DNA of 64,000 nt, from the NCBI GenBank assembly GCA_900316105.1, contig ONBR01000006.1, forward strand, positions 62,001 through 126,000. Reading direction: 5' to 3'. The notes beneath the pieces were generated by a model that saw only the letters and a list, made by a program, of their open reading frames with translations, ran no database searches and was not told the DNA's origin. Both the position numbers and the translations under genes were made by a program. The DNA is from an uncultured Olsenella sp. GTDB taxonomy: Bacteria > Actinomycetota > Coriobacteriia > Coriobacteriales > Atopobiaceae. Below, piece after piece: positions 35,174 through 43,739 of this stretch (positions within the stretch are counted from its first letter, which is position 1; the number at the start of each line of letters is the position of its first letter).

Positions 35174-35725
35174 ATGATAGCGCTCATCATCGTCATAGCC
35201 ATTGTCGTAATCCTAGCCATCGTCTACATCTCCCTGCACAACAACATCGTCAGGATGGACAACCGCTGCGACAATGCCTGGCAGACCATCGACACCCAGC
35301 TCCAGCGTCGAAATGACCTCATCCCCAACCTTGTGGAGACGGTCAAGGGCTACGCAAAGCACGAGTCGGGCACCCTCGAGGCCGTCACCCAGGCCCGCTC
35401 CATGATTCAGACCGCCACCACCCCCGAGGCAAAGATGGAGGCGTCCAACGTCCTCACAGGTGCCCTGCGCTCGCTCTTTGCCGTAGCCGAGGCCTACCCC
35501 GACCTCAAGGCAAACGAGAACTTCCAGCAGCTCCAGGAGGACCTCACGGACACCGAGAACAAGATCTCCTATGCCCGCCAGAGCTTCAACGACTGTGTGC
35601 TGGAGTACAACAACGCCATAGAGACCTTCCCCGGTAATATCGTCGCAGGCAGCAAGTTCAAGGCCCGCACAGGCTTCGAGGTCACGGACGCCTCCGCCCG
35701 TCAGGCGCCCAAGGTGCAGTTCTAG
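35174..35725 (+). CDS. LemA family protein
   Basis: A 183-residue membrane protein with one N-terminal helix (IALIIVIAIVVILAIVYI) and a four-helix cytoplasmic or external bundle. Family markers are NRCDNAWQTIDTQLQRRNDLIPNLVETVKGYAKHE, YPDLKANENFQQLQEDLTDTENKI and YNNAIETFPGNIVA. The ATG at 35174 follows GGAGG. LemA proteins are widespread, sometimes beside TPM-domain or M48 protease genes, but their role is not known; none of those partners is here. It ends at a strong terminator. Confidence 0.95.
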   Translation: MIALIIVIAIVVILAIVYISLHNNIVRMDNRCDNAWQTIDTQLQRRNDLIPNLVETVKGYAKHESGTLEAVTQARSMIQTATTPEAKMEASNVLTGALRSLFAVAEAYPDLKANENFQQLQEDLTDTENKISYARQSFNDCVLEYNNAIETFPGNIVAGSKFKARTGFEVTDASARQAPKVQF

Positions 35726-35747
35726 GGGTCACGCCACATTACTGACA

Positions 35748-35801
35748 AGGGGAGCCCCTCTTTTTTTCCAGCGTTTTGGGAAAAGAGGGGCTCCCCTATT
35801 T
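35748..35801 (+). terminator. Strong Rho-independent terminator after lemA
   Basis: AGGGGAGCCCCTC (35748-35760) pairs with GAGGGGCTCCCCT (35785-35797); a TTTTTTT/AAAA inner part extends the stem. ATTTT follows. Confidence 0.85.
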
Positions 35802-35878
35802 TCATACGTGTACAATGTGCCGTTGGAGTTCGGCCATACCTCGCGCATCCCGGCTCCGATTCCGCAAGCAATCAGAAA

Positions 35879-36007
35879 GGTCATCGATGAAACCTCGACC
35901 GCACAGTCGATGACCCCACGCGAGTCCTTGTTGGTCTTGCCGTGGGGTAGCCCAAGCAGCAGCGCGCCCAGCTATGCGAGGCGGCGCGCCTGACCAACAA
36001 AGAGGAG
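35879..36007 (+). promoter_or_regulatory. Structured 5' leader, candidate metal-responsive RNA
   Basis: Four pairings can be drawn. P1: GGTCATCGA (35879-35887) with TCGATGACC (35907-35915). P2: ACCCCACG (35913-35920) with CGTGGGGT (35941-35948), sharing bases with P1. P3: TTGTTGGTC (35928-35936), in the P2 loop, with GACCAACAA (35992-36000), giving a pseudoknot-like topology. P4: GCGCGCC (35962-35968) with GGCGCGC (35983-35989). The 3' arm of P3 ends just before the GAGGAG ribosome binding site (36002-36007), so its pairing could hide or free translation. It does not match the M-box or yybP-ykoY consensus as I know them. Confidence 0.6.
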
Positions 36008-36012
36008 CTCGC

Positions 36013-37857
36013 ATGATTTACCTGACCCAGATTCTGGGAAATCCCGTCTATGACCTCAACGGAGAGCGCATCGGCAAGGTCAACGACCTTGGCATCGCCA
36101 CTGGCGAGGTATTTCCCCGCGTCACCTCCCTGGCCGTCCAGGGACCTGGACGTACGCCCTTCATGATCAGCTGGCGCAAGTACGTCGGCTCCTTCGACGA
36201 GGACGAGGTCCATCTGAAGGTCATCGCCACCGACATTCGCTTCAGCTACCTCCAGCCCGACGAGGTGCTGATGGCCCGCGACATCCTGAACAAGCAGATT
36301 GTCGACACCCGTGGCGCACGCGTCGTCCGCGTGAACGACCTCAAGCTCTCGGACACCAACCAGAACCAGCTCCGTCTCCTGGGAGCAGAGGTTGGCGTGA
36401 GAGGCCTCCTGCGCGCCCTCTCTCCCGCACTGGAAAAGATTACTCTACACGCCGCAAGGTCCCTGGGAAAGTCCATTCCCGAGCGCATCATCGCCTGGAA
36501 CTACATGGATCTCCTGGACCGCGACCTCTCTGACGTGAAGCTCTCCGTATCCCACAAGACCCTGGACGAACTCCATCCCGCAGACATAGCCGACATCATC
36601 GAGCGCCTGGACCCCCGCCTGCGTGGCCAGGTCTTTGCCCAGCTGGACGAGGAGCAGGCGGCTGATGCCATCGCCGAGCTGGAGGACGACTCCATGGCAG
36701 CCGAGCTCATGGGCGACATGAGCGAGGACGCCGCGTCGCGGCTCCTGTCCGAGATGGACCCCGACGACGCAGCAGAGCTGGTGGGCGAGCTGGACTACGA
36801 GAAGGCCGAGAAGCTCCTACGCCTGATGGGCGTCAAGGAGCGCAGCGCCATCAACCAGCTTCTGGGCTATCCCGAGGACACCGCCGGCCGTATCATGACC
36901 TCGCAGTTCGTTCAGATTGACGAATCCGGCACCGCAAGGGACGCCGCCAACGTCATCAGGGGCCTGGACGAGGACTTCGAGACGGTGAGCTACGTCTACC
37001 TGAACGACGACGAGGGCCGTCTTTCGGGCGTAGTCAGCCTCCGTAAGCTCGTGGCTGCAGACGACACGACCCGACTGAAGGACATCGCCTACGACGACAT
37101 CGTCTATGCCCATCCGGAGGATGACCAGGAGGACGTCGCCCAGGACATCGCCAAGTACAACCTCCTGTCCATGCCCATAGTGGATGACAAGAAGAAGCTC
37201 CAGGGCATCGTGACCGTCGACGACGCCCTGGACGTCCTGGAGGAGGAGCACCAGGAAGACCTGCAGATAGCAGGTGCCGGTCACTCCGACTCGGACAACC
37301 GCTCTGGTTCCCACGACATAGCCTGGCTGGTTCGAAACGAGTTTTGGTTCATCATCTGGATGGCGGGCCTGGCGGCTCTGGTCGGCCTTGTAGGGGAGCC
37401 TCGCCGCGCCCTGGCGCTGGCTCTGGGGAGCGCCCTGCCCGTTGCCGTCGTAGCGGCCCTAGACTCCATCACCTACGTGACGAACTTCTTCATCGAGCAC
37501 GACCCGGACGACCCCGACTCCCCCTCACTCGTGGGATTCGCCTTCAAGGGCGCTGGTCTGGGCCTCCTCTTCTCCGCCTTCGTGGCCCTGGTATCAACAG
37601 GCATCTTCAGTGCCTTCTTTACAGGTTCGGACTCCCTCTACAGAGTAGGTCGACTGGGGGCGGCGGGATTTTCGGCTGCGGCGGCAAGCATCCTGATTAC
37701 CTTCCTCCTCATGCCCCTCTATCTCAAGGTTCTCAGCACCCGAGACGAAAGGGGCAAGGAGACGTCAGGGACGACCCTGCAGGTCATCGCCATGGCCATT
37801 GCGGTGGTGGTCTTCATCGTCATCGCCCTGGCCCTCGTTCGCGTTTGGGGGCTCTAG
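36013..37857 (+). CDS. PRC-barrel / MgtE_N / CBS-pair membrane protein, probable magnesium sensor
   Basis: A 614-residue protein. ATG at 36013 (MIYLTQILGNPVYD) follows GAGGAG. Residues 1-150 look like two PRC-barrel-type beta domains (VYDLNGERIGKVNDLG, VVRVNDLKLSD). Residues about 180-310 are an MgtE N-terminal helical domain (LHPADIADIIERLDPRLRGQVFAQLDEEQAADAIAELED). A CBS pair follows (GYPEDTAGRIMTSQFVQID..., ILSM-like KYNLLSMPIVDDKKKLQGIVTVDDAL). The last 170 residues hold about five membrane helices. The MgtE pore signature with GGNxG is not present, so this is not a plain MgtE channel. The next gene starts two bases after its stop, which suggests it senses magnesium for that transporter. 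Confidence 0.8.
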   Translation: MIYLTQILGNPVYDLNGERIGKVNDLGIATGEVFPRVTSLAVQGPGRTPFMISWRKYVGSFDEDEVHLKVIATDIRFSYLQPDEVLMARDILNKQIVDTRGARVVRVNDLKLSDTNQNQLRLLGAEVGVRGLLRALSPALEKITLHAARSLGKSIPERIIAWNYMDLLDRDLSDVKLSVSHKTLDELHPADIADIIERLDPRLRGQVFAQLDEEQAADAIAELEDDSMAAELMGDMSEDAASRLLSEMDPDDAAELVGELDYEKAEKLLRLMGVKERSAINQLLGYPEDTAGRIMTSQFVQIDESGTARDAANVIRGLDEDFETVSYVYLNDDEGRLSGVVSLRKLVAADDTTRLKDIAYDDIVYAHPEDDQEDVAQDIAKYNLLSMPIVDDKKKLQGIVTVDDALDVLEEEHQEDLQIAGAGHSDSDNRSGSHDIAWLVRNEFWFIIWMAGLAALVGLVGEPRRALALALGSALPVAVVAALDSITYVTNFFIEHDPDDPDSPSLVGFAFKGAGLGLLFSAFVALVSTGIFSAFFTGSDSLYRVGRLGAAGFSAAAASILITFLLMPLYLKVLSTRDERGKETSGTTLQVIAMAIAVVVFIVIALALVRVWGL

Positions 37858-37858
37858 C

Positions 37859-39124
37859 ATGACCAATACGAAAGAGCTCAAGAAGATCGCTGGAAGCAGC
37901 GCTCGCAAGGGTCGTCTTGCCCTCCTGGCGGCAATGGGTCCCGGCCTGCTCACTGCGCTGGCTGGCAACGATGCGGGCGGCATTGCCACCTACTCCTCCG
38001 CTGGTGCCTCCTATGGCTACGGGATGCTCTGGACCGTGCCCCTGATGTGCCTCCTCCTCATAGTGGTGCAGGAGACCTCTGCACGCATGGGCTGCGCCAC
38101 GGGCAAGGGCTTCGCCTCCCTGATCCGCGAGCAGTTTGGCATCCGAATCTCGGCAGTGGCAATGCTGGCCCTGGTGATATCGAACTTCGCGGTCACACTC
38201 TCGGAGTTCGCCGGTATCGCCCAGGGTATGGCCCTCTTTGGCGTGCCCACCTACGTGTCGGTACCCGTGGCGGCATTGGCCACCTGGTTGCTCACCATGA
38301 CTGGCTCCTACCGCCGCATCGAAAAGATTCTGCTCATCATCAGCTGCGTCTTCGTCACCTATGTGATTGCCGGCATCTGCGCAGGTCCCGACTGGGGGCA
38401 GGCCCTCTACACCACCATCGTGCCCCAGGGTTCGAGCGACCCCGGCTACATCTCGCTCATGGTGGCAAACGTCGGTACCACGATTTCGCCCTACATGATC
38501 TTTATGGTGTCCAGCAACGTGGTGGAAAAGAACCTCGACGCCTCCGACATCCCGGGACAGCGTGCCGACAACGTCTCTGGGGCCATCGTGGCGGAGGTCA
38601 TTACCTGGTTCATCATGATGACGACAGGGACCATCCTCTATCCCGCGGGTATCCCCGTCAATGACGCTGCCGATGCCGCCATGGCTCTGGTGCCCCTGGC
38701 AGGCCAGTATGCTTCGGGCCTCTTTGCCGCTGGCCTGGTAGGCGCATCCTTCCTGGCAGCCTGCGTCATGCCTGGCATAACCGCGGGCGCCGTCTGCGAG
38801 GCATTTGGCTGGGAGCGAGGCGCCAACAGCAGTTGGCGAGAAGCGCCCACCTACCACGGCATCATCACGGTCATCACAATCCTGAGCGCCGCCATGGTTC
38901 TCATGCCTGGTGCAGACCTCTTTGGCATCATGATGGTGTCACAGGTCATCAACGGCGTCCTCCTGCCCGTCCTGCTTCTGTGCATGGTCTTCATTGCCAG
39001 CGACAGACACGTGATGGGCAAGAACGCAAACGGCCGCATCTGGTCGACCCTCACCTGGTTCACGATCGTGGCCGTAGCCATCCTGACGGTAGTGATGTTC
39101 GTCTTCCAGACCCTAGGTTACTAA
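37859..39124 (+). CDS. NRAMP-related magnesium transporter (NRMT-like)
   Basis: A 421-residue SLC11/NRAMP-fold transporter with about eleven membrane helices. The helix 1 metal site reads GNDAGGIAT where manganese/iron transporters have DPGN; helix 6 reads TTISPYMIF where they have a methionine in AxxMPH. The retained aspartate, the Asn-to-Gly change and the lost methionine are the features reported for the magnesium-specific NRAMP clade, whose studied member is from Eggerthella lenta, another coriobacterium. ATG at 37859 overlaps the intergenic TAG-C spacer of the upstream sensor-like gene, so the two are one operon. Function as a magnesium importer is inferred. Confidence 0.85.
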   Translation: MTNTKELKKIAGSSARKGRLALLAAMGPGLLTALAGNDAGGIATYSSAGASYGYGMLWTVPLMCLLLIVVQETSARMGCATGKGFASLIREQFGIRISAVAMLALVISNFAVTLSEFAGIAQGMALFGVPTYVSVPVAALATWLLTMTGSYRRIEKILLIISCVFVTYVIAGICAGPDWGQALYTTIVPQGSSDPGYISLMVANVGTTISPYMIFMVSSNVVEKNLDASDIPGQRADNVSGAIVAEVITWFIMMTTGTILYPAGIPVNDAADAAMALVPLAGQYASGLFAAGLVGASFLAACVMPGITAGAVCEAFGWERGANSSWREAPTYHGIITVITILSAAMVLMPGADLFGIMMVSQVINGVLLPVLLLCMVFIASDRHVMGKNANGRIWSTLTWFTIVAVAILTVVMFVFQTLGY

Positions 39125-39337: not shown

Positions 39338-40072
39338 TTACTTGCTTGCCTTCTTGTACTCGTCCAGGAAGGAGTTGAACATGCCCTTCGTCTTGCCGAG
39401 CTGCTTGCCTAGGGCCTTCGATCCCTTGTCCACGGCCACGGAGGCCTTGGCGTCGAACTTCTTTGATGCTGCCGCACCCTTGACCTTTGCCTTTGCGTAG
39501 CCCTCGCCGGCCTTTGCCGCAACACCACCCGTGAGTTGCAGGTCCTTTGCGGCATCATCCACGACCATATAGCCCTTGGAGTAGCCCTTTACCATGCTGG
39601 CGGGGATGGGCAGGGCACCAACCAGGGACTCCGCCATGCCGCCGTCGCCCACGTAGAAGGCCTCCACCTTGCCAGTATTTTCGTCAAAGGATACATCGCT
39701 CACGAAACCCAGGTCCTTGCCGCTCCTTGTGCGAGCGTCCATGCCAGCCCACATGACGCAGCGGTCCCAGTCCAGATTCAGGCGCTTGCGTGCTGCGTCG
39801 TCGGTACCGTTCTTCTCGTCCGTGATCAGCAGATGGTCGTCTTCACGCGCAATGGAGTCATAGGCCACAAAGATGTCCTTGCGCTTGACCATGCCAGCAA
39901 CGTCGGGTCTCTTTACCAGGTAGCCCACGAGCCTGCTTCCCTTGGGCGAGAAGACCGCCATGTGGATGCGGCCAAGCTTCTTGAACTCCTCCTCCTTGCC
40001 CTGCTTGGTCTTCTTGACCTTGTGCACGCCTACCTTCTTGCGTGTAAGCTCGCTCAGCCTGACCGTGGCCAT
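39338..40072 (-). CDS. PRC-barrel domain protein
   Basis: A 244-residue soluble protein. ATG at 40072 (MATVRLSELTRKKVGVHKV) follows GGGAGG by five bases. Two PRC-barrel-like halves can be seen: LGRIHMAVFSPKGSRLVGYLVKRPD near residues 38-62 and DLGFVSDVSFDENTGKVEAFYVGDGG near 122-147. The C-terminal 70 residues are Ala/Lys-rich (AKAGEGYAKAKVKGAAASKKF). PRC barrels bind RNA or protein, as in RimM. It is convergent with the magnesium operon, which also contains PRC-type domains. Function unknown. Confidence 0.7.
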   Translation of the reverse strand: MATVRLSELTRKKVGVHKVKKTKQGKEEEFKKLGRIHMAVFSPKGSRLVGYLVKRPDVAGMVKRKDIFVAYDSIAREDDHLLITDEKNGTDDAARKRLNLDWDRCVMWAGMDARTRSGKDLGFVSDVSFDENTGKVEAFYVGDGGMAESLVGALPIPASMVKGYSKGYMVVDDAAKDLQLTGGVAAKAGEGYAKAKVKGAAASKKFDAKASVAVDKGSKALGKQLGKTKGMFNSFLDEYKKASK

Positions 40073-40131
40073 CCGTACCTCCCGAAATCGACCCACCCAA
40101 AAGCCCTACGGATGGGCTTTCCCAACAAGAA

Positions 40132-42365: not shown

Positions 42366-43739
42366 CTACTTGTCCACTTGTTCTTCCTGGCCTTCCCGAG
42401 ACTCTCGTCCCTCCCTGTCAGGATCCTCGGCAGGAGGTTCGTCCGCGTCCTCCTGAGGCTCTGGCGCCGTGACGCGCACCAGGGAAACGCGACGACGCCT
42501 GAGGGACTGGACGTGGAAGGTATACCCCTCCAGCTGGAACTCGTCCCCAGGCCTGGGCAATCCGTCGAACTCGTCCAGGATGAAGCCGGCAATGGTCTCG
42601 TACTCCTCTGAATCCTCGATGGGCCAGCCGAGCTCGATGGCGTCGTCGATAGAGTAGCGGCCGTCCACCAGCCACTCGCGCTCCGAGAGCTGGGTCAGGT
42701 ATTTGTTGTCGGGATCGAACTCGTCCTCGATCTCGCCCACGACCTCCTCGACGATGTCCTCTATCGTAATGATGCCCGCGGTGCCGCCGTACTCGTCCAC
42801 GACGATGACCATGTGGTCGTGGGCACCACGCATCTCGGACAGGAGGGGGATGATGTCCTTCGTGTCAGGGACGAAGTCCGCGTGGCGCATGTAGCGCTTG
42901 ATGGGATCGGCAGCGGCGTGGTTGTCCATAGCGGGGCCGATCAGGTCCTTGATGTGGGCAATGCCCACGATGCGGTCGATGTCCTCGTGGTAGATGGGGA
43001 TACGGGAGTAGCCCTTGTCCTGCATGATGTCGATGACCGTGCCCACGGTAGTGTCGTCTTCCACGAAGGTCACGTCCACGCGAGGGACCATGACCTCGCG
43101 GGCATTGGTGTCACCCAGGTCGATGACCTCGTGAATCATGGACTTCTCCTCGGCGGAGAGCTCGTCGGAGTCACGCACCATGTAGCGGATCTCGTCCTCC
43201 GACACATCCTGACGGTCCTCGGTGCCCTTGATGTGTAGGAGAAGGGCCAGGCCGTTGGAGCTTGCCGCAGTCAACCAAACCAGGGGATGGACAACCTTTG
43301 AGAAGCCCCTGAGCGGACCCGTGACCTTCTTTGCCACGCCCTCGGCATCCGCCATGGCGATGCGCTTGGGCACAAGCTCGCCCACCACGATGGAGAAGTA
43401 GGAGACGATGAGGGTGATGATCACCGTGGCGAGCGTGTTGGCCAGGCCCTGGTCCAGGCCAAATCCAGACAGCCAGGCACCCATGGGCTCGGACAGGCTG
43501 GTGGCTGCAAATGCCGAACTAAAGAAGCCCAGGAGGGTAATGCCCACCTGAATGGTGGCCAGGAAGCGGCTGGGGTTCTCCACGGCATCGGAAGCAGCCG
43601 CAGCGCGCTTGTCGCCCTCCTCTGCCTCATGGTCCAGAAGGACCTTGTGTGCCGTAGAAAGTGCCATCTCCGACATGGAGAAATACCCGTTGAAGATGGT
43701 CAGAATTACCGTAACCGCAATCGATATGGCTATGTTCAT
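42366..43739 (-). CDS. CNNM/CorC-type transporter with CBS pair (hemolysin family)
   Basis: A 457-residue membrane protein. The N-terminal DUF21/CNNM domain (residues 1-190) has four helices, opening [30 protein letters not shown] and including [21 protein letters not shown] pair follows ([71 protein letters not shown]). The C-terminal CorC_HlyC domain ([16 protein letters not shown]...) ends in an acidic tail. Relatives export magnesium or sodium, so this may complement the importers upstream. Earlier 'hemolysin' naming is historical. Confidence 0.93.

Follow-up and report, generated by a model that had tools for sequence, protein, structure and literature searches.

The window analysed here, 64,000 nucleotides of DNA from an uncultured Olsenella sp., carries a two-gene operon preceded by a structured leader, both on the forward strand (+). 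The first gene (36013-37857) encodes a membrane protein with PRC-barrel, MgtE_N and CBS domains (Pfam PF05239, PF03448 and PF00571); its orthologue in one Atopobiaceae genome (G050:C32:434-2257, +) carries an in-frame TAG. The second gene (37859-39124) encodes an NRMT-type transporter of the Nramp family (PF01566), whose best match in the PDB is 7qia (EleNRMT) with 478.5 bits, the next chain scoring 100.1 bits. NRMT proteins are marked by a DxxG motif in helix 1, replacing DxxN, and by TxxA/T in helix 6, and EleNRMT is described as a Mg2+ transporter (PMC8806188). The Olsenella protein carries the DxxG signature in helix 1, where its NDAGG aligns with the NDAGG of 7qia; in helix 6 it reads GTTISP against GTTIAP of 7qia, in keeping with TxxA/T, with one motif position that may be Ser. 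The regulated operon is one for import of a divalent metal, probably Mg2+.

Genes for Mg2+ homeostasis abound in the surrounding region. Besides the NRMT operon, it contains a CorA-like Mg2+ transporter gene (PF01544; 31704-32774, +) about 3 kb upstream and a gene for a CNNM/CBS/CorC_HlyC membrane protein (42366-43739, -); the CNNM/CorC-type family includes putative Mg2+ exporters. A second PRC-barrel protein is encoded just past the operon, in convergent orientation (39338-40096, -). On the other side, lemA is followed by a long inverted repeat (35748-35797) that carries a T run and separates the gene from the leader; the repeat is probably the lemA terminator.

The leader opens with a short upstream reading frame (uORF; 35887-35913), for which we found orthologous uORFs and whose codons ATG AAA CCT CGA CCG CAC AGT CGA TGA spell the leader peptide MKPRPHSR*. 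Its Shine-Dalgarno (SD) sequence, AGAAAGG (35874-35880), lies 6 nt before the ATG. Helix P1 pairs 35879-35887 (GGTCATCGA) with 35907-35915 (TCGATGACC): its 5' arm shares bases with the uORF SD and includes the first base of the start codon, and its 3' arm comprises the last uORF codon, the stop codon and the two next bases. P2 pairs 35914-35920 (CCCCACG) with 35941-35947 (CGTGGGG) and can be lengthened by the pair A35913-T35948, so that its full arms (35913-35920 and 35941-35948) begin at the uORF stop and bases 35913-35915 are common to P1 and P2. P3 joins the anti-SD side, located between the arms of P2 (35928-35936, TTGTTGGTC), to 35992-36000 (GACCAACAA) by nine Watson-Crick pairs. Its 3' arm directly adjoins the SD of the importer operon, AGAGGAG (36001-36007), which precedes the start codon at 36013. 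The helices, read from the sequence and re-located by script, agree with a first-pass annotation of the same DNA, which had given the same positions for P1, P2 and P3, the overlap of the first two and the nine perfectly complementary bases immediately before the SD; it had overlooked that P1 overlaps the SD, the start and the end of an eight-codon reading frame.

The minimum free energy (MFE) of the leader is -64.7 kcal/mol, against -47.25 (s.d. 4.1) for shuffled sequences (z = -4.26; 0 of 200 shuffles as good). In the predicted MFE structure P1 coexists with an extended P3, whose helix reaches 5' to 35920 and runs on through the SD and beyond, covering the start codon as well. In this leader (L001), pairing between the segment after the uORF and the SD segment ranks first of 100 shuffles.

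The short reading frame across Coriobacteriia

Of 140 Atopobiaceae genomes searched with the leader DNA, 102 gave matches. Most were confined to its first ~45 bases, and the conserved block, at about query positions 5-47, consists of the SD and the uORF. With the exception of L030, where the frame is retained and Ser replaces Pro at codon 3, all loci obtained by DNA similarity fit the uORF pattern (69 of 70). Applied to 84,980 species genomes, this pattern matched 92 stretches; among the 80 matches listed of the 92, all are from Atopobiaceae or from Olsenella-type or loosely named actinobacterial genomes, except Azospirillum and Cellvibrio. These two have no stop codon at the position of the uORF end and are set aside as chance matches.

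Codon usage was counted in 90 distinct Atopobiaceae leaders, with a search pattern that left third positions free. The first four codons are ATG (90), AAA (88) or AAG (2), CCT (71) or CCC (19), and CGA (90), followed by CCT in 87 leaders and by a variable sixth codon. The seventh is AGT (82), CGT (7) or TGT (1), the eighth CGA in 84, and the stop TGA (80), TAG (6) or TAA (4). From codon 2 to codon 5, variation falls on third positions only; in 59 aligned leaders the entropy of these codons is 0.12, 0.00 and 1.33 bits at positions 1, 2 and 3. Judging from this conservation of the codon pattern, the uORF is very likely translated. A strong constraint is also seen at synonymous sites, such as the fourth codon, which is CGA in 60 of 60 Atopobiaceae representatives; it could reflect selection at the RNA level.

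A second, overlapping frame, read by hand, runs for 27 codons from the ATG at 35910 to 35993. We considered it as a coupling device and dropped it, since its ATG is lost wherever the uORF stop is TAA or TAG (8 of 60 representatives) or codon 8 differs from CGA (7 of 60).

Throughout the class Coriobacteriia, related uORFs sit upstream of the same type of operon (PRC/MgtE_N/CBS plus NRMT-type Nramp). We grouped the leaders into Atopobiaceae (f1), a putative Collinsella-type family (f10), a putative Eggerthella-type family (f2), both labels being our own reading, and other orders of the class, whose loci are the better-scoring matches and not a random draw. Representatives with less than 90% similarity numbered 60 of 99, 15 of 30, 27 of 32 and 23 of 32, respectively. 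Leaders lacking a uORF or a main start were left out before the counts (L026, L081, L139 and L185, which have no recognised main start, and L238, L265 and L292).

The characteristic peptide is MKPRPHSR in Atopobiaceae, MKSKPRPHSR in the Collinsella-type family, MKVRKxKPHSx in the Eggerthella-type family and M[KRT]PxSx in other orders. The Collinsella-type frame, GTG AAA TCC AAA CCT CGA CCT CAC AGT CGC TGA, occurs in 30 of 31 loci examined; the Eggerthella-type frame, TTG AAG GTT CGA AAA CCG AAA CCT CAC AGT AAG TAG (MKVRKPKPHSK and variants), in 32 of 33, among them the diverged L225. In other orders (32 of 32 loci) the uORF is in most cases down to six codons, for example MKPHSP, MTPSSP or MRPFSQ, and one of the 32, L284, has no Pro. 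Over the class, the length of 6-11 codons shifts in whole codons, and start (ATG, GTG, TTG) and stop codons (TGA, TAA, TAG) are swapped between families. An SD-like motif precedes the uORF in 60/60 Atopobiaceae, 15/15 Collinsella-type, 27/27 Eggerthella-type and 22/23 other-order leaders, and in the single f3 leader (1/1).

A common rule, M..P-x-S(AGT)-x..stop, holds in 119 of 125 representative leaders (56/60, 15/15, 26/27 and 22/23 in the order f1, f10, f2 and other orders, used throughout below), compared with 9 of 2500 shuffles and 1 of 20 leaders from outside the class, the latter a loose match; inspection by eye of the 20 outside leaders revealed no similar uORF. Counting back from the stop, Pro is the fourth codon in 60/60, 14/15, 26/27 and 20/23 representatives, and Ser, as AGT and never as TCN, is the second in 56/60, 14/15, 26/27 and 21/23. 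The uORF is absent or its core lost in L265, L292, L284 and L225. The Nramp gene adjoins the first gene in all 60 loci of the Collinsella- and Eggerthella-type families. Locus L243 of the latter links the leader to the protein of known structure: its Nramp protein agrees with EleNRMT at about 369 of 384 positions counted from the alignment (an identity of about 96%), and the locus has an MKVRKSKPHSK uORF with a P2/P3 leader.

The near-fixed Pro and AGT Ser codons would suit an amino-acid attenuator, in which the Pro, Arg, Lys, His or Ser codons sense the charging of one tRNA and the importer follows amino-acid supply. However, the uORF contains no run of any single amino acid, its shortest forms (MTPSSP, MRPFSQ) contain Pro just once or twice and lack any fixed His or Arg, and the downstream genes encode a metal importer and no biosynthetic operon; we regard this explanation as the least probable of those considered. 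Hardly better placed is a role without sensing, either constitutive coupling, whereby the uORF keeps the leader open, or a micropeptide acting in trans. The short conserved peptide and its position before the operon fit such a role, as does the presence of one uORF per genome in nearly all cases (79 matches in 78 genomes). Against coupling, the distance from the uORF stop to the main start, 51-141 nt in Atopobiaceae and up to 276 nt in the Eggerthella-type family, is too long and too variable, and under either version the maintained alternative pairings described below would be superfluous.

Co-variation and exclusivity of the stems

To follow each helix through evolution, we compared the pairing energy of a leader's own arms with that of its arm and the partner arms of other species, over 5000 permutations; the test does not model the tree. 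For P3, own arms pair better by 3.05, 0.68, 3.41 and 2.37 kcal/mol, with 0, 591, 0 and 0 of 5000 permutations as good, the Collinsella-type value not being significant. For P2 the corresponding counts are 0, 175, 0 and 0. P2 and P3 thus co-vary in three of the four groups (Atopobiaceae, the Eggerthella-type family and other orders). Controls with a reversed partner or another segment were mostly flat; the exceptions, two other-order P2 controls with 203 and 112 of 5000, indicate that composition contributes there.

Support for P1 is weaker but compensatory: 277, 7, 297 and 68 of 5000 permutations were as good, which is not significant in Atopobiaceae and the Eggerthella-type family. RNAalifold recovered part of P2 and not P1 from the other-order alignment (A1, 29 loci, with identical leaders and two nine-codon ones left out), and chose other short pairs in the Collinsella-type family, so the named helices were counted instead. 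In other orders 82.3% of P1 cells are paired, with a covariation reached by 0 of 500 shuffles and above that of all six slid registers; 85.8% of P2 cells are paired, and 8 of its 12 pairs have changed on both sides. In the Collinsella-type family P1 is 83.7% paired, and its 5' arm and the stop codon alter jointly: in eight sequences a C-G pair has become U-A where the stop has gone from TGA to TAA (TGA/TCA to TAA/TTA). The stop codon of the uORF therefore co-varies with bases near its own ribosome-binding site.

A median of 0.59, 0.54, 0.45 and 0.64 of the P3 5' arm lies inside the P2 stem. With about half of the anti-SD side engaged in this way, P2 and P3 largely exclude each other, and together they very probably form an exclusive switch of the SD. 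Complementarity of the anti-SD side to the SD segment has a median rank of 3 of 100 against shuffles, and 64 of 98 leaders rank fifth or higher; in some, such as L003 and L004, it is no better than in shuffles. A further helix, P4, between the P2 3' arm and the following bases, is supported in the Eggerthella-type family only (8 of 5000 permutations as good, against 722 in Atopobiaceae, 3101 in the Collinsella-type family and 3617 in other orders) and was therefore left out of the general model. In leaders L223-L252 of that family, for example L243, a P4 such as GCAGTCG/CGACTGC completes a 1:2, 2:3, 3:4 set.

The first-pass annotation had read the leader as a riboswitch for a divalent metal. 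In such a riboswitch, Mg2+ would stabilise either the pairing of the P2 loop with the SD segment or the combination of P1 and P3, and the uORF would be an accessory or a passenger. The SD-masking helix is conserved, as this reading would have it, and a pseudoknot is possible in the Eggerthella-type family, where a good part of the anti-SD side lies in the P2 loop (a median of 45% of its bases are paired in P2). Loop-only pairing with the SD segment, the mark of an H-type pseudoknot, is moreover better within than between species in Atopobiaceae and the Eggerthella-type family (1 and 2 of 5000). Yet it is weak, with means of -2.9 to -5.8 kcal/mol against -16 to -20 for the full P3, and in the other three groups more than half of the P3 5' arm sits in the P2 stem, so that P2 and P3 are mostly exclusive. 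The best-conserved part of the leader is, besides, a short frame complete with SD, start and stop codons, and not an aptamer-like junction. We consider a metal riboswitch unlikely, if less so than the two explanations discussed above.

Comparison with known families points the same way. A gathering-threshold Rfam scan of the whole window returned one tRNA and nothing else; a relaxed scan of 35720-36100 gave no M-box, no yybP-ykoY and no other family that fits the leader; and neither M-box nor yybP-ykoY was found in six homologous loci. The Collinsella-1 motif (RF01700), as described in PMC2864571, had no match in the homologous loci scanned. A riboswitch of a known Rfam family was accordingly rejected. 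The earlier interpretation is in sum partly supported: its mutually exclusive folds at the SD of a divalent-metal importer operon are kept by compensatory changes in related Coriobacteriia, and the leader matches neither metal family that it had named, whereas its riboswitch is not supported, the strongly conserved core being a reading frame.

A proposed ribosome-operated attenuator and its relatives

In the explanation that we propose, ribosomes operate the leader as a translational attenuator of the Mg2+-importer operon; we put its probability at roughly 0.7. With a reading frame at the conserved core in place of an aptamer-like junction, the likely sensor is the ribosome as it translates the leader peptide. 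The tiny uORF (here eight codons) would be translated from its own SD. In the putative OFF state, P1 would pair the uORF ribosome-binding site with the segment after the stop and P3 the anti-SD side with the importer SD, masking both ribosome-binding sites. In the ON state, P2 would engage the bases that follow the stop, together with a portion of the anti-SD side in most groups, and both sites would be left open. The pairings behind these two states are backed by co-variation.

Ribosomes on the uORF would break P1 and thereby select the state; translation of the uORF probably controls the SD switch. The footprint of a ribosome reaches about 15 nt ahead of its P site. The conserved Pro is the fourth codon ahead of the stop; if a ribosome were to pause or drop off while this Pro occupies its P site, its front would be about at the stop codon and the P2 arm would be left free, whereas a ribosome at the uORF stop would cover that arm. 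At low Mg2+, by analogy with MgtL and MgtQ, uORF translation may fail or slow early, so that P2 forms and the importer is made.

Mg2+ is a fairly likely signal, judging by the kinship of the importer with EleNRMT. NRMT genes in Clostridia and Deltaproteobacteria are described with an M-box upstream (PMC4072509), and the clostridial arrangement suggests the same signal here. The direction of control as stated is put forward at even odds. When the leaders were folded at equilibrium with a stretch the size of a ribosome blocked at the start, the conserved Pro or the stop, no consistent SD exposure was obtained in any group: by partition functions, exposure with a stall at Pro exceeded that with a stall at the stop in 32/60, 6/15, 18/27 and 11/23 leaders. 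Direction and trigger therefore remain proposals. In the window's leader, P3 is still formed in the MFE structure with an early ribosome on the uORF, and a forced P2 is 8.4 kcal/mol worse (-62.8 against -71.2), so that the model requires kinetic, co-transcriptional folding.

A broader suggestion is more tentative, and we lean slightly against it: the minimal leader peptides of the class, down to six codons (M-[KRT]-P-x-S-x-stop), may let the ribosome serve as a Mg2+ gauge without any acidic residue, the intermittent Pro and the near-invariant AGU Ser making translation fail at low Mg2+ and thus flipping the SD-masking RNA.

Searches of the open-licence literature on leader peptides, uORFs and attenuation in Coriobacteriia, on NRMT operons and on RNA motifs of these genera turned up no description of the element. 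It shares with the M-box (ykoK) the control of NRMT-type Mg2+ importers (PMC4072509), and the M-box of M. tuberculosis is described as a translational platform with uORFs (PMC12810186); the conserved element here is, in contrast, the uORF, with no M-box in this leader or in the six homologous loci. The nearest catalogue of motifs lists, as a strong candidate for a riboswitch, an mgtE motif from Thioalkalivibrio, which is likewise a structured leader with the SD and AUG at a stem base, before a gene annotated mgtE. Compared by its description, however, it is limited to Thioalkalivibrio and has numerous conserved nucleotides, and that description mentions no uORF (PMC11109978). The ilvB uORF motif of Corynebacterium is, as reported there, also actinobacterial and was first a riboswitch candidate, later shown to be a uORF; it differs in being rich in Ile, Leu and Val codons and in working via an intrinsic terminator (PMC11109978).

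On the proposed reading, the element is an attenuator that a uORF operates and that masks the SD of a Mg2+ importer, unrelated in sequence to the enterobacterial ones. Like elements of the MgtL/MgtQ type, it has, as read from its sequence, a short conserved uORF with SD and apparently exclusive folds, one of which would mask the downstream ribosome-binding site; the acidic residues (or EPDP) of that type are missing, with no Asp or Glu in MKPRPHSR or its common variants and a single Glu in one Eggerthella-type variant (L242, MKVRERKPVSK).

MgtL, upstream of mgtA in E. coli and Salmonella, also has alternate Pro codons near its N-terminus and precedes a Mg2+ importer, and the ribosome is described as failing at its motif in low Mg2+; it differs by the acidic EPDP and by Rho-dependent termination, whereas in the present leader Pro alternates with K/R and control apparently acts on the SD (PMC11282234 for MgtL). 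MgtQ is an 8-codon uORF between mgtC and mgtB of Salmonella, where stems 1:2 and 3:4 mask the mgtB ribosome-binding site, stem 2:3 frees it, and slow or aborted uORF translation favours the ON state (PMC8092293). The eight codons, the conserved Pro and the alternative stems are mirrored in Olsenella, as would be the translational control of a Mg2+ transporter. No sequence similarity was seen between the two, though, and as MgtQ is described, Asp2 and Glu5 matter where the present peptide has no acidic residue; stem 1 lies inside the uORF where one of its sides here is the uORF ribosome-binding site; and phylum, transporter family and position (between genes, here at the operon start) are different (PMC8092293).

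In the literature compared, sensing of Mg2+ by ribosome failure on leader peptides belongs to enterobacteria only, with MgtL and MgtQ. If true, the present mechanism would mean that ribosome-based sensing of Mg2+ was invented a second time and independently, outside Proteobacteria and with another peptide chemistry, and would provide a regulatory handle on NRMT importers of known structure. Its six-codon form is near the minimum for a regulatory reading frame and makes it directly testable which feature of a codon or nascent chain renders a ribosome sensitive to Mg2+. Altogether, the same logic in a non-homologous leader kept class-wide, in Olsenella as in relatives of Eggerthella, would show acidic residues to be no requirement of the principle behind MgtL and MgtQ.
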